Assembly (NCBI GenBank): GCA_035506275.1
Contig: DATJPT010000008.1
Coordinates: forward strand, 62,001-126,000
DNA from: Bacteroidota bacterium
Lineage (GTDB): Bacteria > Bacteroidota > Ignavibacteria > UBA10030 > UBA8401
Reading direction: 5' to 3'
DNA: 64,000 nt
Shown one piece after another: positions 440 to 25,433 of this stretch. How positions within the stretch are numbered: position 1 is the first letter of the stretch; the number at the start of each line of letters is the position of its first letter. Both the position numbers and the translations under genes were made by a program. The notes below the pieces were generated by a model. It saw only the letters and a program-made list of their open reading frames with translations, searched no databases and had not been told where the DNA came from.

Positions 440-2422
440 TCAGTTCAACCGCTTGATAAGATCAATCAGAGCTTTCGCTCTCGCTTCAACCCTAACGGAA
501 TCTTCTTTGATTCCTTTCACGAAACTGTTGCCGTCGTACGTCCCGCGAACAGCGGAAAAATCCGCATCCCGTACGGATGCGCCGCCGTCGATTCCATAGC
601 TAATTTTTGACTGGACATCGAACTCCTTTCGGGCATCATCAAGGACCATCACATTGTATTTGTCGGATGCCGCCTTCCATTCTTCGATGAGAGAGACGAG
701 TGTGGCGGCTGTCATCTCCCTCATCGAGATATGAGACCGGGTTTCGATCAGTCGGGCGCACCAGTTCCATTCATATTCATCGTACTTTGCATGAATCTTC
801 AACAGCTCATCATCGAAACTCTTGATATCGTTGATCTTCCCGCCGGCAACGTTGCCAACAAATTCGGCAATGACCGATTCCGGCGCCATGAGGCCGTTGA
901 CATCAACCCATTTTACCAGATCGTTGTCAACGGTCCGGGAAAGCGCGCTGCGGACCTCGTTGAGCGTCGTGCAATTTTTCAGCTCGTCAAGTTTCCTGCC
1001 TAGGCAATCGCCGATAAACATTCTAATAGCCGTTTCGTAACACTCGCAAGCAGTGTTTACAACTTTCTTCTGAATGAGAACACCGCCGAAGTTCAGCGTC
1101 TCCTGGCCGTCTGAAGCACTTTTTGCGAGGTCGTTCAGCAACTGGATCCCGCGGAGCATTTTCCCGATCACAAACGGGGAAAGAACTTGAAAATGTATAA
1201 GATCGCGTTTCGCGTCTTTTCGGCCGTCGCGGCCCGGCCATTTCATGCCGTCCCGCTTTACGCCGACCGTGAAGAAACTCCACCCCGGGATGCACACGGT
1301 TTTTCCTCCGCTCTCCCTGATAAGAGAAAACGGAAGGTCGGTGGTATCGAAATTTGCGTAATTCTTGCCGATCACGGTGCTGAACGCGCCGACGCGGTTC
1401 TCCCATGACAAATAACTGAACGAACCTGTCTTCGATCCCCGTTCAAGAACTCCTTGATGAACCGGACCGAGTTTATACATGTGGTTACTTTGATTCGATC
1501 CGCTGCCGGCATTATAGAACGAAAAGAAACCTGCGATCAAAAGGGTCGACTTATGGTGTGAAACGGTGTAAGGGCCGGCAAAGGCAGAGCATCCTTCGCC
1601 GTGAAATAGTTCCGAATTGCAAAAGAACGCAGAGTTCTCAGCAGAAAATTGTTTGCCGACTTTTACGCTTTGGCCGACAAAGCATTTTTCCAGAATAGCG
1701 GACTGATCTGCTTTCGAGCCGGACAGAACAATGAATTTTTTCGCTATGACGCCGGTTCCTATGTACACCGGAGCCAGGGCTGAACTTTGGACGGTTCCCT
1801 CTTCGAGCGTCAGTGCTCCGTCGATGATCGCGAACGGCCCAACCGCGACGTTTGTTATCCTTCCCGCGCCGCTAATCCGAGCGCCCGTTCCGATCGTTCC
1901 CCTTGACGCCGTCCTTGTTTTGGTGTAGCCGTCGATAATTTCATTGAGCTTGTCGATCAGCGCTGAATGGTGTCTGTAGAAGACAATGAAGTACGCCATT
2001 TGAGCGGAGAGGCAATCAAATATTTTCAGGCTCCGGCCGCCCCCCTCGTTTAACACATCGATCTCGACACCGTTGCCGAACGACGACGTCCCGACGACCA
2101 TCACCGGGCCGCAATTTTCGATGACAACATTGTCTTCAAGAAGATAATTTCCAAGGTATGCCACGTTTGACAGATAACTATTGCTCCCGATCGAGCAATT
2201 ATGGATCTGGCAATGGTATAGTCCGCAGTTTTGTTCGATACCGCTGGACAATTTCACTTTCGCGGTAAAAGCACCAAGCTCCACGGCGCCGCTGAACGAG
2301 ACGTTTCTAAATCTTTTGATATCAAAAGGTTCCTTGACGAGGATTTGGCTCCAATCACCGGCCTGACACCCGCGCGCTTCCAGCTCGTCTATTTCCTTCC
2401 GTGATAATGTTCTCGATTCCAT
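440..2422 (-). CDS. DUF4954 family protein, probable left-handed beta-helix
   Basis: 660 aa and cytoplasmic, with no signal peptide. The N-terminal 250 residues contain many short hexapeptide-like turns (motifs such as NCSIGSNSYLSNV and SSFGNGVEIDVLNEGGGR). This is the pattern of DUF4954 proteins of Bacteroidota, which resemble left-handed beta-helix acyl- or nucleotidyl-transferases. The family assignment is from memory of Bacteroides homologues. The catalytic activity is unknown. The start is an ATG with a GGAAGG-type ribosome site about 10 nt upstream. It is the last gene of the minus-strand chitin/GlcNAc locus, separated from nagB by a hairpin. That position suggests a link to amino-sugar or UDP-GlcNAc metabolism, but this is inference only. 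Confidence 0.75.
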   Translation of the reverse strand: MESRTLSRKEIDELEARGCQAGDWSQILVKEPFDIKRFRNVSFSGAVELGAFTAKVKLSSGIEQNCGLYHCQIHNCSIGSNSYLSNVAYLGNYLLEDNVVIENCGPVMVVGTSSFGNGVEIDVLNEGGGRSLKIFDCLSAQMAYFIVFYRHHSALIDKLNEIIDGYTKTRTASRGTIGTGARISGAGRITNVAVGPFAIIDGALTLEEGTVQSSALAPVYIGTGVIAKKFIVLSGSKADQSAILEKCFVGQSVKVGKQFSAENSAFFCNSELFHGEGCSAFAGPYTVSHHKSTLLIAGFFSFYNAGSGSNQSNHMYKLGPVHQGVLERGSKTGSFSYLSWENRVGAFSTVIGKNYANFDTTDLPFSLIRESGGKTVCIPGWSFFTVGVKRDGMKWPGRDGRKDAKRDLIHFQVLSPFVIGKMLRGIQLLNDLAKSASDGQETLNFGGVLIQKKVVNTACECYETAIRMFIGDCLGRKLDELKNCTTLNEVRSALSRTVDNDLVKWVDVNGLMAPESVIAEFVGNVAGGKINDIKSFDDELLKIHAKYDEYEWNWCARLIETRSHISMREMTAATLVSLIEEWKAASDKYNVMVLDDARKEFDVQSKISYGIDGGASVRDADFSAVRGTYDGNSFVKGIKEDSVRVEARAKALIDLIKRLN

Positions 2423-19993: not shown

Positions 19994-21262
19994 TCAGCCT
20001 GCAACTGCTCCTTCGAGCCTCGTGAATGAAGATATCCTGGAGGCGTGGAGTGAAATCGTGTGAAGAGGTTCGAACATTTCGTACAACACGAGGCCGGCTG
20101 CTCCCAATGCAACGGCTTCTTCCCCCTTCGTTGCAGCTTTGACCACAACAGCTTCGGCAGGAACAGAAAGCAAATCCTTGTGAATATTACCGCGCACCAA
20201 TTCGACGATTTTCGGGTACAAAAGAGGAAGTTTACCCCCCAGAATAATAAGCTCCGGGTTCAGTGTGTTGATCAGATTGATGCTGATATTGCTGAGCAGT
20301 GACGCACATTCTTCGTAGATTCGGAGCGCAATTCTATCGCCATTGAGCGCCTTATTTGCGATATCGGGAGCAGAGAGCTCCCCTTTGTGAGCATCCGATA
20401 CGTTTCTTCGGTATGCGTCGATGATATTTGCATCGGTTAGAATTTGACCGACGATAGACTGACCGTTGTACAAAAGCGGGAATTGTTCTTTGTAAAAGAA
20501 CGCCGGTTCAAGCTCGGCATATCCGATCTCTCCTGCGCTGGATGTAAATCCCCGGTGAAGAAGCCCGTTGATCATGATGCCCGCCCCCAGGCCGTCTCCG
20601 ATAAAGAGATAGACAAGATTCTTGACCCCTTTGGCCGAACCGAGCAAATATTCTCCGAGCGTCATTGCTTTGACGTCGTTCTCGACGTACACTGGCACCT
20701 TGTACTCCCTTTCCAACTCATCGCTCAGCGATTCCCCCTCCCATGATTTTTTGTTGTGCGAAACCATGAGGAGATTGTTTTTGTAGTCGATCAAACCCTG
20801 GACGCCTATGCCGATGCCGACCAGGCGCGATTGCGGCGTGTGTGTTTCTTTAAGGAGAGAGGAGATCGTATCAACAGCAATCGACAGAACTTTTTTCGCG
20901 GGCGTTTCGAGCGAATAGGCAAAGGTTTTTTCCCGAAGGACTGCCGCGTTGAGGTCGGTGAGAACGATAGTCGCATGAGTCATGCCGATGTCGACACCGG
21001 CGACGAGTCCAGCAAGAGGGAGAAACCGGAGAAGCATTCTTTTTCGCCCCACTTTATCGTTGGCCTCCGTTTTACCGGTCTCTTCGAGGAATCCTGATTG
21101 AATCAGCTTGGCGACAATTTCGGAAACATAGGCTTTATTGAGATTGCACGCCTTGGCAATTTCGACGCGGGAGATTTCTCCGCTGTCTCTCACGAGACGG
21201 AGAACACGCACTTCATTGGGCTCCCGAATTAACGATGATCGTTGACTAATGACATCCCACAA
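19994..21262 (-). CDS. ROK-family regulator lacking the zinc motif
   Basis: 422 aa. An N-terminal winged helix-turn-helix (ISRVEIAKACNLNKAYVS, about residues 30-75) is followed by a ROK domain (GVDIGMTHATIVL, VENDVKAMTLGE, GDGLGAGIMING). Unlike its neighbour, the sequence after the GE motif reads GYAELEP instead of GH...CxCGxxGC, so both the zinc-binding His and the three Cys are absent. DIGGT is also altered to DIGMT. It is probably a non-catalytic sensor-repressor of divergent specificity. The frame starts at TTG with a poor ribosome site, and no in-frame ATG lies near, so the exact start is uncertain. It shares the strand with the chitin locus and may be its second regulator. Confidence 0.85.
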   Translation of the reverse strand: MWDVISQRSSLIREPNEVRVLRLVRDSGEISRVEIAKACNLNKAYVSEIVAKLIQSGFLEETGKTEANDKVGRKRMLLRFLPLAGLVAGVDIGMTHATIVLTDLNAAVLREKTFAYSLETPAKKVLSIAVDTISSLLKETHTPQSRLVGIGIGVQGLIDYKNNLLMVSHNKKSWEGESLSDELEREYKVPVYVENDVKAMTLGEYLLGSAKGVKNLVYLFIGDGLGAGIMINGLLHRGFTSSAGEIGYAELEPAFFYKEQFPLLYNGQSIVGQILTDANIIDAYRRNVSDAHKGELSAPDIANKALNGDRIALRIYEECASLLSNISINLINTLNPELIILGGKLPLLYPKIVELVRGNIHKDLLSVPAEAVVVKAATKGEEAVALGAAGLVLYEMFEPLHTISLHASRISSFTRLEGAVAG

Positions 21263-21500
21263 AGAATTTGGCCCGGCGCATAGAGATAAAATGGGTACGA
21301 GTTGAACGGTACAAACCTACCTGAAAATGTGATAAAAATCAAGGGAACGAAAAAGGAGGTTGAGGTCATTTAACTTCCAAGCACGATGTTCACTCTTCAA
21401 AAGACCCCGCAACCAAAAGATGAACGTCAAGCAGCACTTCTTCGACAACAGACTTTTTTCCTTCTTTTTATTTGACTCTTTTTTTTGTATTTTTGAGCGG

Positions 21501-21563
21501 ATGAGGAGAGCTGGCAGAACGGCTATTGCATCCTCCGAAGGAGGACGCGCGAGAGCCCTGTAG
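21501..21563 (+). pseudogene. Decayed tRNA-Ser 5' copy with altered anticodon arm
   Basis: The first 30 nt (ATGAGGAGAG... to TTGCA) are identical to 21595-21624, the 5' flank and 5' half of the intact tRNA-Ser. The anticodon arm is replaced by the hairpin TCCTCC-GAA-GGAGGA. A rough variable-arm relic (CGCGCGAGAGCCCTGTAG) follows, and the T arm and 3' acceptor strand are missing. It lies 36 nt upstream of the intact gene and cannot form a functional tRNA. The 238 nt before it, back to the ROK gene, hold nothing else recognisable. Confidence 0.75.
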
Positions 21564-21598
21564 ATTAGTTAGCGTTTAAGATCGTAATTTCTAAATGA

Positions 21599-21681
21599 GG
21601 AGAGCTGGCAGAACGGCTATTGCACCGGTCTTGAAAACCGGCGCCCGTAAGGGCTTGTAGGTTCGAATCCTACGCTCTCCG
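21599..21681 (+). tRNA. tRNA-Ser (anticodon TGA)
   Basis: An 83-nt class II tRNA folds fully. The acceptor is GGAGAGC/GCTCTCC with discriminator G. The anticodon stem is CCGGT/ACCGG around loop CTTGAAA (anticodon TGA at 21632-21634). The long variable arm is CGCCCGTAAGGGC, and the T arm is GTAGG-TTCGAAT-CCTAC. CCA is not encoded. It reads UCN codons, chiefly UCA. A GIY-YIG ORF begins 4 nt after its last base. Confidence 0.97.
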
Positions 21682-21684
21682 CAA

Positions 21685-21990
21685 GTGGGACAATTCTTTG
21701 TGTATATTCTTTGCTCGCAAAAACATTCCCGGTCGTATGTGGGTCAGACAAACGATTGTGAGGCTCGACTGGAACGCCACAACAGGGGCTATGTCACTTC
21801 AACAAGACCTTACCGTCCTTGGGTGATGATCCAACGGGAACAATTTGAGACTCGCGGTGAAGCAATGAAACGAGAGCACTGGTACAAAACCGGTACAGGA
21901 CATCGCCGTATTAAAAAACTCATCGCAGAGTATCTGGAAGCAAAACGGCTATTGCATCCTCCGAAGGAGGGCGCCCGTAAGGGCTTGTAG
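21685..21990 (+). CDS. GIY-YIG nuclease-family protein, copy 1
   Basis: 101 aa starting at GTG only 4 nt after tRNA-Ser; no ribosome site is visible. Residues 5-85 are a complete single GIY-YIG domain of the small UPF0213-like type common in Bacteroidota. It has FVYILCS and SYVGQTND in place of GIY and YIG, the catalytic Arg in ARLERHN, and the catalytic Glu in FETRGEAMKRE. The last 15 residues (KRLLHPPKEGARKGL) are encoded by a degenerate tRNA-Ser copy, and the TAG stop is the TAG of its T-arm stem. The role is unknown. It could be a tRNA-linked selfish endonuclease or a DNA repair accessory. Expression is uncertain, but the domain is intact. Confidence 0.7.
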   Translation: MGQFFVYILCSQKHSRSYVGQTNDCEARLERHNRGYVTSTRPYRPWVMIQREQFETRGEAMKREHWYKTGTGHRRIKKLIAEYLEAKRLLHPPKEGARKGL

Positions 21991-22039
21991 GTTCGAATCT
22001 CGAAGATCCGCCGCTCTTTTTAGCGGACAACGCTCTCCG
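21944..22039 (+). pseudogene. Decayed tRNA-Ser copy B, at the end of unit 1
   Basis: It matches tRNA-Ser from AACGGCTATTGCA in the D-arm region onwards. The 17-nt anticodon arm is replaced by the hairpin TCCTCC-GAA-GGAGGG. The variable arm and T loop (21971-21998) are identical to 21641-21668. A block of about 28 nt then splits the T stem, and CGCTCTCCG restores the acceptor 3' strand. The 5' acceptor strand is absent. It overlaps the C-terminal codons and the stop of GIY-YIG copy 1. Confidence 0.8.
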
Positions 22040-22042
22040 CAA

Positions 22043-22348
22043 GTGGGACAATTCTTTGTGTATATTCTTTGCTCGGAAAAGCATTCCCGGTCGTATGTGG
22101 GCCAGACAAACGATTGTGAAGCTCGACTGGAACGCCACAACAGCGGGTATGTCACTTCAACAAGACCTTACCGTCCTTGGGTGATGATCCGACGGGAACA
22201 ATTTGAGACTCGCAGCGAAGCAATGAAACGAGAGCACTGGTACAAAACCGGTACAGGACATCGCCGTATTAAAAAACTCATCGCAGAGTATCTGGAAACA
22301 AAAAGGCTATTGCATCCTCCGAAGGAGGACGCCCGTAAGGGCTTGTAG
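22043..22348 (+). CDS. GIY-YIG nuclease-family protein, copy 2
   Basis: 101 aa, tandem paralogue of copy 1 with six residue differences (for example Q12E, and Ser for Arg in HNSGY). All catalytic motifs (VYILCS, YVGQTND, ARLERHN, EAMKRE) are kept. It starts at GTG 3 nt after the CGCTCTCCG of pseudo-tRNA copy B, and again its last 15 codons and its TAG stop come from tRNA-derived sequence. Retention of both domain copies with several synonymous changes hints at some constraint, though the number of differences is too small to judge. Function as for copy 1. Confidence 0.68.
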   Translation: MGQFFVYILCSEKHSRSYVGQTNDCEARLERHNSGYVTSTRPYRPWVMIRREQFETRSEAMKREHWYKTGTGHRRIKKLIAEYLETKRLLHPPKEDARKGL

Positions 22349-22397
22349 GTTCGAATCTCGAAGATCCTCTGCTCTTTTTAGCGGACTACGCTCTCCG
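22302..22397 (+). pseudogene. Decayed tRNA-Ser copy C, at the end of unit 2
   Basis: Same architecture as copy B: D-arm fragment, hairpin TCCTCC-GAA-GGAGGA for the anticodon arm, intact variable arm and T loop, and a 28-nt block starting TCGAAGATCC inserted in the T stem. CTACGCTCTCCG then follows exactly as in the intact tRNA. Apart from the hairpin and the clean 28-nt insertion, the 3' half is unchanged. Confidence 0.8.
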
Positions 22398-22400
22398 CAA

Positions 22401-22553
22401 GTGGGACAATTCTTTCTGTATATTCTTTGCTCGGAAAAGCATTCCCATGAGAAAATCCAACGTCAACTCATCAATCATACTAAACGCCGTCGCTCTCTAA
22501 GAAAACTCAGCAAGGAATCCAGAGCCAGACTATCTACGATCTTGCAAATTTAA
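22401..22553 (+). pseudogene. Truncated GIY-YIG copy 3 joined to unrelated tail
   Basis: The GTG start and first 15 codons (GQFFLYILCSEKHS) match copies 1 and 2. The frame then continues into 35 unrelated, basic residues (HEKIQRQLINHTKRRR...) before TAA. The second half of the nuclease motif and the catalytic residues are lost. It marks the broken right end of the array. The tail may be a scrap of another gene, which I do not recognise. Confidence 0.65.
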
Positions 22554-22810
22554 ACTTGACTTTGATTTTGAACAGGACGAAGTTTGAACCATCGATTCTT
22601 CGGGCCGGCTCGATTCGTTTGAGAGTTGATTCGGAATAGACCTTACTATTGAACATGCTTCAAGGCGCCCAGCTAAGAAGCTCCAGGGGGCAGACGCAGC
22701 TAAAATTCAGTGAAGTATCTTCCAATTCATTTCTTTTCCCAAACAACTCCTTCGAGCTGTCTGCAATCCGCTTAGTGCAAAACTATTTATAGTTTTCGCA
22801 ATTGACAACC

Positions 22811-23914
22811 ATGACTCCCACTCGGCTTTTCGTTCAACTCGTTATCTTTCTATGCGTCTTGTCGAGCCTTGAATGCAAGAAAGGATCTCCTGTCGGACCC
22901 AGCCAACCCAGTAGTCCTGATTCGACGTCTCATAATATCTCATGGCAATCGTATTCACTTGACGGCGGATCCGGCGTTGAAGGCGCAAGTCTTTATGATG
23001 TTTCAATAATCAATGATTCGCTCATTCTTGCAGTCGGTGAAGTCTACTTCACGGACTCCACAACTGGAGTTCCTGATCCAAGGCCTTACAATCTGGCAGA
23101 GTGGAATGGAACTTCTTGGAGCTTAAGAAAGGTCGCCGTCGCGACTCCTTATGGATCTGCCACCACGCCAATATACGGGATATTTTCATTTTCAGCCACG
23201 GACATCTGGCTTCTCGCCGGATTCCCCGTTCACGGCGATGGCACAACGTGGAATGAATACGATCTCGTCAACATGGGAATCCTGACTCAGAACGATGGTT
23301 ATATTCGCGGTGCATGGGGAAGCAGTTCCAAGGACATGTATTTCATTGGAACTAAAGGAACAATAGTCCATTACGATGGGACGAATTGGAAAAAGATTCA
23401 AACGGGAACAGCGCTCGATATGCAGGCGATTTGGGGTGGATATGACCAGAAGACTTCTGAATACCAGATTTTGGCCCTGGCGTCATACCCATTCACTTTT
23501 CCAGAGGGCAAATTACTTCTACAACTCAATGGGTCAACGGCGACTGCAATTGCAGACAGCGGGCTGGCGCCTAGTCTGATGGGTCTTTGGTTTATACCAT
23601 CCGAGTGCTATTACATCGTTGGTGATGGGATTTATCAAAAGAGTATTCTTGGCGACCCAATGTGGTCATCTCTACCACTCCTTACAACCTTTTACACCTC
23701 AAACGCAAGAGGAAATAGTCCAATTGACGTCTTTATTGTCGGATCCTTCGGGGAATGTCTACATTGGAATGGAAAATCATGGAGGAGTTTCTTTAATGTT
23801 ACGGGGCTAGAAAATGGGGCTTATTCACAGGTTGCGGTGAAGGGAAACATTGTTGCGGCAGCGGGATCAAACAACGCAACCGCTGTCGTTCTGATCGGCC
23901 GTCGGGCAAATTGA
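22811..23914 (+). CDS. Exported (probable lipoprotein) beta-propeller-like protein
   Basis: 367 aa from the ATG; an in-frame TTG lies 9 nt upstream. A hydrophobic leader ends at SSLECKK, so Cys22 may be lipidated, although the lipobox is not canonical. The body has repeats of the form W-n-G-T/S-W (AEWNGTSWS, VHYDGTNWKKI, LHWNGKSWRS) with intervening SSxDxY/IW segments. This pattern is common in FCB-group surface lipoproteins and suggests a kelch- or BNR-like propeller. Function is unknown. It stands alone between the GIY-YIG array and a glycosyltransferase-like gene. No ribosome site is evident. Confidence 0.7.
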   Translation: MTPTRLFVQLVIFLCVLSSLECKKGSPVGPSQPSSPDSTSHNISWQSYSLDGGSGVEGASLYDVSIINDSLILAVGEVYFTDSTTGVPDPRPYNLAEWNGTSWSLRKVAVATPYGSATTPIYGIFSFSATDIWLLAGFPVHGDGTTWNEYDLVNMGILTQNDGYIRGAWGSSSKDMYFIGTKGTIVHYDGTNWKKIQTGTALDMQAIWGGYDQKTSEYQILALASYPFTFPEGKLLLQLNGSTATAIADSGLAPSLMGLWFIPSECYYIVGDGIYQKSILGDPMWSSLPLLTTFYTSNARGNSPIDVFIVGSFGECLHWNGKSWRSFFNVTGLENGAYSQVAVKGNIVAAAGSNNATAVVLIGRRAN

Positions 23915-24007
23915 TTTGGCCGAAACGGGGTTTTGGATTATTGAAACAATGGGCTTTTAAAAAAACATCCCCTACCAGCGATTCCCATAACGGCCCATCA
24001 CTGCATC

Positions 24008-24070
24008 AAAAACTCATCGCAGAGTATCTGGAAACAAAACGGCTATTGCATCCTCCGAAGGAGGACGCCC
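24008..24070 (+). repeat. Dispersed scrap of the GIY-YIG/pseudo-tRNA unit
   Basis: 63 nt matching the end of unit 2 almost exactly: codons for KLIAEYLETKRLLHPPKED, the hairpin TCCTCC-GAA-GGAGGA, and GACGCCC. It is flanked by unrelated sequence and lies 1.6 kb from the array, between the lipoprotein and the next gene. This shows the unit has been copied or left behind elsewhere. Confidence 0.85.
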
Positions 24071-24161
24071 ATCTGATGCCCCTCGCCCAGCAGAATATCT
24101 CACACTTTTTGCGAGCTCCTTCTTTAGACTAAGATGATTTAACTTCTTATATTGGTTGTTG

Positions 24162-25433
24162 ATGAAGTTCTTTCATGCTCTCAAAATTCGTCTTTTGTTC
24201 CCGCCAAAGAGCGTTTTGATCGCCGGTCTATCATTCAGACTAATTTGTGCTCTCGCCTTCGCGGATTTGCACTCAGATTACTACTGGGAATACGGCGAGA
24301 TCGCCAAAAACGTGATCTCTGGGAAAGGTTACTCGTTTCGCGCCTTTAGCGGCGACACCATGATCGACAGATATCGGGAGGGCCTATCTCCCCTTCCGAC
24401 AGCATTCATGTCTCCCGGTTATGTCTGGGTCCTGATTCCTTTCATTGCATTGCGCAATTCTGTCGTTGCCAACATCCTTCTCATTTTGCTTCAAACCCTT
24501 CTGTCAATGGCAACAATCGTTTTGGTCTATCACTTTACACGCGCAATGTTCAACCCTCGAGCGGCTTTGTTCAGCGCAATTGCAGCGGCGCTTATGCCAG
24601 ATGTTGTCTATGCAGTTATATCTTTTTCACCGACGGTTTTCTATCATGCCGGCGTGATCATACTCTTGTTGTTAATTGGAAACGGGAAGTCTGAATCCCC
24701 GCGCTTGCACATATTTCTTGTCTCGGTCTTATGCGCAGTGCTCATTTTTTTCCGATTCGAGTTCGTTCTTTACGTCTTTCTTATTGCCCTTTTGCTGGCA
24801 CTCGAACGCAGAGCCAAGGAGAGTATTGTCATTGTCATGACAACGATCTGTTTCATCCTTCCCTGGTCCGCTCGAAATTACGAGGTCTTCGGCGAGATGG
24901 TTCCTCTCGGAACCGGGGCAGGCTTGAATTTATACAGGGGAAATAATGCTGAAAATATTGGAAGCTGGGGGAATGAAAAGACCAATCGGGAACTCCTCAG
25001 AATTCCACGAGACAAAAGATTCGAGCTCGCTCTTGATAGTTTGTTTCGAGAAGAAGCATGGGATTTTGTCCGGAAGGAGCCGAAACGTGAGGCTGAACTT
25101 GTGGCAGTGAAGGTCGGACAACTCTGGTTGTTCAGCCCTCTTCACCCCACGCCGTACAATCTCGTGTACGTAGCGGCATCGTCACTTGCCTTCATTTTAT
25201 TTTTCGTTGGACTCTTGGTAACTTGGCATTGGGCCAAGTACAAATATCTTTATATGTTTCTGCTCTATTCTACAATCCTCGCAATGATATTTTTTGCCCT
25301 CCCCAGGCATCAGACGATGATGCGCATCGGGATGCTCCCCTTTATTGGTGCCGGCGTTGACGCTTTGATGACGTATTTCAGCCGGCCGGCGAAGTTAGGT
25401 CTCGAGAGGCAAAAAACTTTGGAAGGCCGTTAG
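24162..25433 (+). CDS. GT39/ArnT-like polytopic glycosyltransferase family protein
   Basis: 423 aa from the ATG; two in-frame TTG codons precede it. About 10 membrane helices are separated by a large first loop (residues 30-80) with HSDYYWEYGEIAKNVISGKGYS. This is the acidic-residue and GKGYS pattern of dolichyl-phosphate-mannose-type transferases, which move sugars from polyprenyl phosphates to lipids or proteins on the outer face of the inner membrane. Later motifs include LPWSARNYEVFG, common in this family. Substrate unknown. It is convergent with the EamA-like gene, 12 nt apart. Confidence 0.78.
   Translation: MKFFHALKIRLLFPPKSVLIAGLSFRLICALAFADLHSDYYWEYGEIAKNVISGKGYSFRAFSGDTMIDRYREGLSPLPTAFMSPGYVWVLIPFIALRNSVVANILLILLQTLLSMATIVLVYHFTRAMFNPRAALFSAIAAALMPDVVYAVISFSPTVFYHAGVIILLLLIGNGKSESPRLHIFLVSVLCAVLIFFRFEFVLYVFLIALLLALERRAKESIVIVMTTICFILPWSARNYEVFGEMVPLGTGAGLNLYRGNNAENIGSWGNEKTNRELLRIPRDKRFELALDSLFREEAWDFVRKEPKREAELVAVKVGQLWLFSPLHPTPYNLVYVAASSLAFILFFVGLLVTWHWAKYKYLYMFLLYSTILAMIFFALPRHQTMMRIGMLPFIGAGVDALMTYFSRPAKLGLERQKTLEGR

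Follow-up and report, generated by a model that had tools for sequence, protein, structure and literature searches.

Probable homing elements and other occupants of RNA genes

Genomic islands and phages that integrate into tRNA genes have a well-known hallmark: the 3' end of the tRNA gene is restored and a displaced copy is left behind. In mitochondria, short palindromes called double-hairpin elements have been described as mobile, often in or near RNA genes and loops; we know of no linkage between them and a nuclease.

Other occupants bring an endonuclease of their own. Fungal mitochondrial endonuclease ORFs that carry a gene end are found in atp6 of Allomyces macrogynus and in atp6, atp9, cox2 and nad3 of Glomus sp. 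(PMC3630166). The ORF, encoding a LAGLIDADG protein or, in atp9, a GIY-YIG protein, interrupts an essential gene but brings a new 3' end that makes the gene whole again, and the native end is displaced downstream (PMC3630166). In phages T4 and T6, the tRNA gene regions harbour SegB, a homing endonuclease of the GIY-YIG type that is freestanding and has no intron (PMC2988022, PMC13096335); SegB was shown to drive the tandem amplification of a tRNA-containing segment via breaks and homologous recombination (PMC13096335).

How does the locus considered here compare with these systems? It lies in a 64,000-nucleotide stretch of a Bacteroidota genome, the whole of which is called the window below, and consists of small GIY-YIG nuclease genes repeated behind a tRNA-Ser gene. 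Its architecture is that of the Allomyces and Glomus type, in which a replacement part of the gene is carried and the native part is displaced beyond it. However, that type concerns organellar protein genes, with few cases per genome, whereas the hosts here are chromosomal bacterial RNA genes and the units measure ~300-450 bp. The Bacteroidota elements also come in both 5' and 3' rescue versions, form tandem arrays and have palindromes in the displaced half. Like SegB, they are intron-free, encode a GIY-YIG protein and lie beside tRNA genes of many isotypes. In contrast, SegB is phage-borne and acts on tRNA clusters, the accessible text reports no displaced rescue halves, and no sequence relation of the Bacteroidota nucleases to phage endonucleases was detected with the queries used. 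The intact tRNA on one side and the displaced tRNA 3' end on the other recall the tRNA-integrating islands and phages, but these carry a tyrosine or serine integrase and the Bacteroidota units carry none. The palindromes differ from mitochondrial double-hairpin elements in standing in displaced halves beside a nuclease gene. Judged from sequence, the family appears to belong to the homing elements, a known kind, in a bacterial RNA-gene form of which we found no description in the open-access literature (subscription papers and preprints fell outside the search).

The array at tRNA-Ser(UGA)

The source genome is a draft assembly of 20 contigs, and a DNA search of it found no second tRNA-Ser(UGA) gene. 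Behind this single copy lies the sole tandem array that Tandem Repeats Finder detects in the window. The features of the locus, all on the forward strand, are these:

21505-21566, +: 5' partial copy of tRNA-Ser(UGA), upstream of the intact gene (repeat family; alignment to tRNA positions 1-65)
21599-21682, +: intact single-copy tRNA-Ser(UGA), the host gene (ARAGORN; Rfam RF00005, 56.6 bits)
21672-22446, +: tandem array, period 358, 2.2 copies (Tandem Repeats Finder)
21685-21990, +: GIY-YIG nuclease gene of unit 1 (ORF; PF01541, E 2.3e-12; catalytic residues conserved in alignment)
21940-22040, +: displaced tRNA-Ser copy 1, tRNA positions 10-84 (alignment)
22043-22348, +: GIY-YIG nuclease gene of unit 2 (ORF; PF01541, E 5.6e-13; dN/dS to unit 1 0.215)
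22298-22398, +: displaced tRNA-Ser copy 2, inserts as in copy 1 (repeat families and alignment)
22401-22446, +: truncated third unit, start of the nuclease ORF only (Tandem Repeats Finder, repeat family)
24008-24070, +: displaced 63-bp remnant of the unit 3' end, 98% identical (own-genome DNA search, G000:C8:86008-86070)

Two full 358-bp units, 96% identical to each other, and a truncated third follow the intact tRNA gene, and the array as a whole shows 96% matches with no indels. A 61-nt unit head recurs at 21670, 22028 and 22386, at a spacing of exactly 358 bp both times; such regularity lies far outside chance expectation. The three starts 358 bp apart given in a preliminary description of this DNA are exact in spacing and belong to a real repeat, but only 46 bp of the third unit are present, from 22401 on, and this stub lacks a nuclease. 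The same description placed the start of the array 4 bp past the tRNA; the GTG start of the first nuclease gene is 2 nt past it, and the repeat register begins within the 3' end of the intact tRNA gene.

Both nuclease ORFs (from 21685 and 22043) encode 101 aa, and the final codons of the first overlap the partial tRNA copy. A GIY-YIG ORF is joined to a tRNA-Ser segment in both full units, as had been noted, but this segment is not simply decayed: it is near-identical to the tRNA save for palindromes at hairpin loops. In displaced copy 1, a palindrome at 21957-21971 replaces the anticodon arm, and a 28-nt insert (22000-22027) splits the T-stem. The palindrome in the anticodon-arm position of the displaced copies reads TCCTCCGAAGGAGG(A/G), also written TCCTCCGAAGGAGGR, and the 5' partial copy upstream of the intact gene likewise has its anticodon arm replaced, by TCCTCCGAAGGAGGA (21531-21545). 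Within the window, folding of the displaced half as a tRNA-like RNA with lengthened arms is unsupported (z -0.83 vs -3.57 for the intact tRNA), and an Rfam search of 21001-24500 returned tRNA only, with no group I intron or catalytic intron RNA. None of the remaining GIY-YIG genes of the source genome adjoins a tRNA.

Between the third-unit stub and the remnant lies ~1.56 kb (22447-24007) containing a putative 370-aa ORF (22802-23914) that has no NCBIfam match. This gap suggests an insertion or rearrangement within the array.

The nuclease

The nuclease domain is PF01541 (GIY-YIG; E ~1e-12), and the catalytic residues Y7, Y18, R28, H32 and E64 are conserved in the family alignment; as would be expected of a freestanding homing element, the encoded enzyme belongs to a family of homing endonucleases and retains its catalytic residues. 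The closest solved proteins by profile are those of UPF0213 (E 6.5e-15) and SLX1 (~1e-7) (1zg2, 1ywl, 7cq2); the nuclease, the sole gene of the element, is a small (~80-100 aa) GIY-YIG protein of UPF0213/SLX1-like kind. Known members of UPF0213, such as YhbQ, and SLX1 are treated as repair-type enzymes and are not tied to RNA genes or multi-copy arrays. The median dN/dS over 38 pairs is 0.105, and this value, like that between the two window copies, indicates that the nuclease genes are under purifying selection. Phage records, searched with a close homolog, and PHROGs gave no match to the nuclease; with one query protein, no relatives were found that would point to a phage or plasmid vehicle.

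A family of elements at RNA genes

Is the array peculiar to this genome? A protein search found relatives in 19 of 22 genomes of the same family, and the strong hits among those 22 genomes have a tRNA beside the ORF in nearly all cases, with many isotypes represented. An intact tRNA or tRNA remnant adjoins 41 of the 44 hits that score at least 75 bits against the family profile, as compared with 4 of the 26 other full-length hits. Across the phylum, matches were found in 227 of 394 sampled Bacteroidota genomes, single-contig genomes included; most of the genomes compared are draft assemblies.

Genomic context was compared at 142 loci (82 + 60) chosen by protein score and not by context. A same-strand tRNA lies within 200 bp at 70 of the 82 loci of the first set, and a same-strand RNA gene lies within 250 bp at 44 of the 60 loci of the second. 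Both sets together thus give 114 of 142 loci with a same-strand RNA gene within 200-250 bp; on the opposite strand, the number is zero in each set. Lower-scoring GIY-YIG genes of the same genomes mostly lack a tRNA link.

Copy number ranges from 0 to 18 per genome. The closed genome G251 has 17 copies at seven loci, every one beside a same-strand tRNA, and contains an array of 5.3 x 450 bp behind tRNA-Leu(CAG). The host tRNAs cover most isotypes (Ser, Pro, Ala, Arg, Leu, Cys, Asn, Asp, Val, Gln and Gly); other hosts are the 4.5S SRP RNA, tmRNA and, rarely, protein genes. These surveys identify the window repeat, at the level of sequence, as one member of a widespread family of ~300-450-bp elements in Bacteroidota. 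The preliminary description had proposed a search of complete genomes for relatives directly beside tRNA genes, and such relatives were found, including arrays of five in closed genomes. Homologs far from tRNAs, which it had named as evidence to the contrary, are a property of other GIY-YIG subfamilies in the same genomes and not of this one. Its picture of an element living on tRNA-Ser 3' ends holds for the host at hand, but is too narrow both in the host gene and in the placement downstream of it.

As a separate observation, six tandem copies (~381-bp spacing) of a more distant GIY-YIG gene occur at G245:C1:541839-543977, where the nearest listed tRNA is ~1.9 kb away.

Displaced halves and their palindromes

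Comparison of the loci reveals that RNA genes are the site of recurrent, oriented insertions, after which the nuclease has an intact gene on one side and a displaced half of that gene on the other. In the downstream form (46 loci) the order is intact tRNA, nuclease, 3' half copy; in the upstream form (25 of 71) it is 5' half copy, nuclease, intact tRNA. A nuclease downstream of the gene goes with a displaced 3' half, and a nuclease upstream of it with a displaced 5' half. A half copy of the same RNA could be aligned in 63 of the 79 pairs tested. The 5'-half copies run from RNA position 1 mostly to positions 28-41, in the anticodon loop, and the 3'-half copies extend to the RNA 3' end. The exact 3' repeats measure 13-44 bp.

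The displaced halves are 94% identical to the intact gene. Inserts of at least 12 nt are present in 50 of the 63 halves. Most of these 76 inserts occupy loops (D, anticodon, variable and T) or their edges, and 47 of the 76 have a better fold than 57 or more of their 60 shuffled versions. In several other halves the anticodon arm is wholly replaced, for example by TCCTCCGAAGGAGGA in the window vs TCCGCCGAAGGCGGA in G013 and G009; palindrome sequences vary between genomes and elements. Palindromes are thus frequent where substitutions are rare, a combination that sets them apart from ordinary decay.

In most of the genomes searched, 3-13 sites carry one particular palindrome type, and some of these sites are away from RNA genes. 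The idea that palindromes are a feature of the elements only was rejected, since they are also found at a few non-RNA sites of the same genomes. A 20-bp palindrome, CCTGCCTGCCGGCAGGCAGG, occupies several sites per genome (G251, G308, G245, G013 and others), some in displaced tRNA halves and some unrelated, and is possibly a mobile palindrome. At another locus (L120/L084, G005:C14), three tandem 5' partial copies of tRNA-Ser, spaced 62 bp apart, lie upstream of an intact tRNA-Ser(UGA) with no nuclease genes between them.

Hosts other than tRNA and a sister class

At two loci (L073 and L075) a 4.5S SRP RNA gene (RF00169, ~1e-12) lies directly before the nuclease and an SRP RNA copy lies behind it. 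In L073 this copy is broken exactly at the conserved tetraloop (CCGG|cctatggctcgtagag|AAGGAAGC). A third locus (L248) has tmRNA as its host (RF00023, 2e-70), with a weak second tmRNA match (E 0.011) behind the nuclease. At L214 and L233 the start of a sugar-nucleotide epimerase gene (..VTGGAGFI) is followed by the nuclease and then by a complete gene that restarts with MNILVTGGAGFIGS or MRILVTGGAGFIGS. In L214 the leftover and re-supplied gene starts differ at several bases; tRNA halves are too conserved for such a comparison of origin.

A sister class of GIY-YIG elements shows no rescue. These elements have inverted ends, such as CCCCGTGAGATA/TATCTCACGGGG, and interrupt integrase or transposase genes. 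Inverted ends of 11-17 bp (e.g. ACCCCGTGAGATA) were seen at L065, L176, L201, L205, L210, L229, L243, L250 and L252, and several elements of this class cleanly split XerC/integron-type integrase genes or a Y1-type transposase gene. A different kind of interruption is found at L094 (G004:C234), where a group I intron (1077-1281, minus strand; RF00028, E 2.9e-6) lies in the anticodon loop of a tRNA-Asp(GUC) gene directly behind an upstream-type nuclease element. A link between the intron site and the nuclease target is possible.

Nuclease lineages and their target genes

Do the nucleases move freely between RNA genes, or is each lineage bound to one of them? When the tRNA label is mapped onto the nuclease tree, 34 changes are required, compared with 66 for shuffled labels, and no shuffle out of 200 needed as few. 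The nucleases on Pro(GGG), Cys(GCA), Pro(CGG) and Asn(GTT) fall into one group per tRNA, that of Pro(GGG) mixing upstream and downstream forms; the tree is built on few columns and has many weak forks, which calls for caution over single clades. In 50 of 75 cases, a nuclease and its nearest relative from another host family occupy tRNAs for the same amino acid (mean of the shuffles 14.4, maximum 28), and the nearest relative lies within the same genome in only 4 of 54. These data argue that nuclease lineages follow the tRNA on which they sit, across host families. The isotype clades could derive in part from old insertions that were inherited vertically.

Empty and occupied sites

Two pairs of genomes, both at tRNA-Ser(UGA), allow an exact comparison of an occupied with an empty site. 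In G014 a 367-bp element is present that is absent from G016; the insertion is clean, and what follows the second tRNA end of G014 can be aligned with what follows the only tRNA of G016. The same alignment pattern is seen for a 349-bp element that is present in G007 and absent from G006. The inserted units include the nuclease.

Within the family, the tRNA-Ser(UGA) site is found intact and occupied, frameshifted (G005), reduced to remnants (G018, G019, G021) or empty (G002, G003, G010, G011, G015, G016, G017 and others). The coexistence of these states is, on sequence comparison, the pattern of a cycle of gain, decay and loss. The intact tRNA is identical in an occupied site (G009) and in empty sites (G018, G015). 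Immunity of the intact tRNA through single-nucleotide differences is thus unsupported, and the sequence of the restored tRNA does not appear to explain how it would escape cutting.

How might the elements spread?

The elements are probably homing elements of a minimal, freestanding kind, which interrupt an RNA gene and restore it ('home-and-rescue'). Each nuclease lineage would be adapted to one RNA gene, here tRNA-Ser, and we infer that it cuts an unoccupied copy of this gene inside the RNA-coding sequence. Repair of the break from an occupied allele would then copy the element in by way of the RNA gene, the sole homology between donor and recipient; such use of the RNA gene as homology arm would explain why the ends of the repeats coincide with those of the gene. 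One intact RNA gene would be restored after insertion because the element carries the missing half, and the cut-off host half would remain on the far side of the element. This displaced half may subsequently be blocked by palindromes at its hairpin loops, which could confer immunity against re-cutting or act as a barrier to recombination that deletes the element. Since the nuclease gene is always on the same strand as the RNA gene, and often only a few bases away, it is presumably expressed from the promoter of the RNA gene. Tandem arrays may arise by unequal recombination or by repeated homing between the repeated halves, and loss, frameshift and remnants would complete the cycle. The preliminary description had suggested that the array may be a minimal selfish or duplicating element; the core of that view, a selfish element with a GIY-YIG nuclease at its centre and a tRNA gene as its home, is well supported by empty sites, recurrence across the phylum and nuclease lineages that follow their target tRNA.

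The restored 3' end, the displaced copy and the exact 3' repeats would equally fit passengers of tyrosine-integrase elements that use tRNA att sites, with integration supplied in trans and the GIY-YIG gene as cargo. However, the units have a single ORF and no integrase, the upstream form with its 5'-half copy is no less well formed, the tRNA is tracked by the nuclease lineage and not by a shared integrase, and the same layout recurs on SRP RNA and at a protein gene start. Such passengers are very unlikely, and the remnant of a tyrosine-integrase island was rejected as the main account for want of an integrase and in view of the 5'-half versions and the SRP RNA and protein-gene cases. It is also unlikely that the nuclease is a host gene serving the adjoining RNA genes, for example in the repair of cruciform or transcription-damaged tRNA genes, with the partial copies as by-products of local duplication. 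Purifying selection on the nuclease is consistent with such a role, as are its nearest solved relatives, UPF0213 proteins and SLX1, which are repair-type structure-specific nucleases, and the RefSeq name of E. coli YhbQ, DNA damage response nuclease. A host gene would not be expected to show patchy occupancy with empty orthologous sites, a copy number that falls to zero and rises to 18, or remnants and frameshifts; moreover, each tRNA has a separate nuclease lineage instead of one shared housekeeping enzyme, and the sister class inserts into integrase and transposase genes.

Could the palindromes have come first? An unrelated mobile palindrome might fill duplicated RNA genes at their hairpin tips, in the manner of mitochondrial double-hairpin elements, and the nuclease gene might later have settled in these sheltered duplicates. 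Palindromes do occur elsewhere in the genomes, and in displaced halves they are found at the D, anticodon, variable and T loops and at the SRP tetraloop. Yet the constant part that tracks the target is the nuclease and not the palindrome, palindrome sequences differ between genomes and elements, and the units inserted at empty sites include the nuclease; the palindrome-led account is accordingly given little credence. It is barely conceivable that the array reflects nothing more than an assembly error or a local tandem duplication without meaning. The draft state of the source genome would allow it, but the units differ by 4%, equivalent arrays exist in single-contig genomes such as G251, selection acts between the copies and the elements recur across the phylum. 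An artefact, a concern raised in the preliminary description, was rejected on the strength of the arrays in closed genomes.

Implications

A broader proposal extends home-and-rescue to the whole phylum. The elements would be natural 'cleave-and-rescue' gene drives on essential structured RNA genes (tRNA, SRP RNA, tmRNA), each with a nuclease lineage matched to one RNA gene, the missing half carried as rescue and the displaced half inactivated by palindromes at hairpin loops. We regard the case for this proposal as evenly balanced. If it is true, the logic of synthetic cleave-and-rescue gene drives has evolved naturally, in bacteria, on noncoding RNA genes.

Few candidate autonomous mobile elements are smaller than these one-gene units of ~300-450 bp, which seem to have spread through the essential RNA genes of an entire bacterial phylum. 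Should the proposed mechanism be correct, they would offer many matched pairs of nuclease and target for the study of sequence specificity in a very small GIY-YIG protein. They would also account for a class of small genes next to tRNAs that bear the name 'GIY-YIG nuclease family', and would alert annotators to pseudo-tRNA copies. The presence of palindromes at hairpin loops poses a testable question, namely how inverted repeats are inserted or selected in the DNA of structured RNAs.
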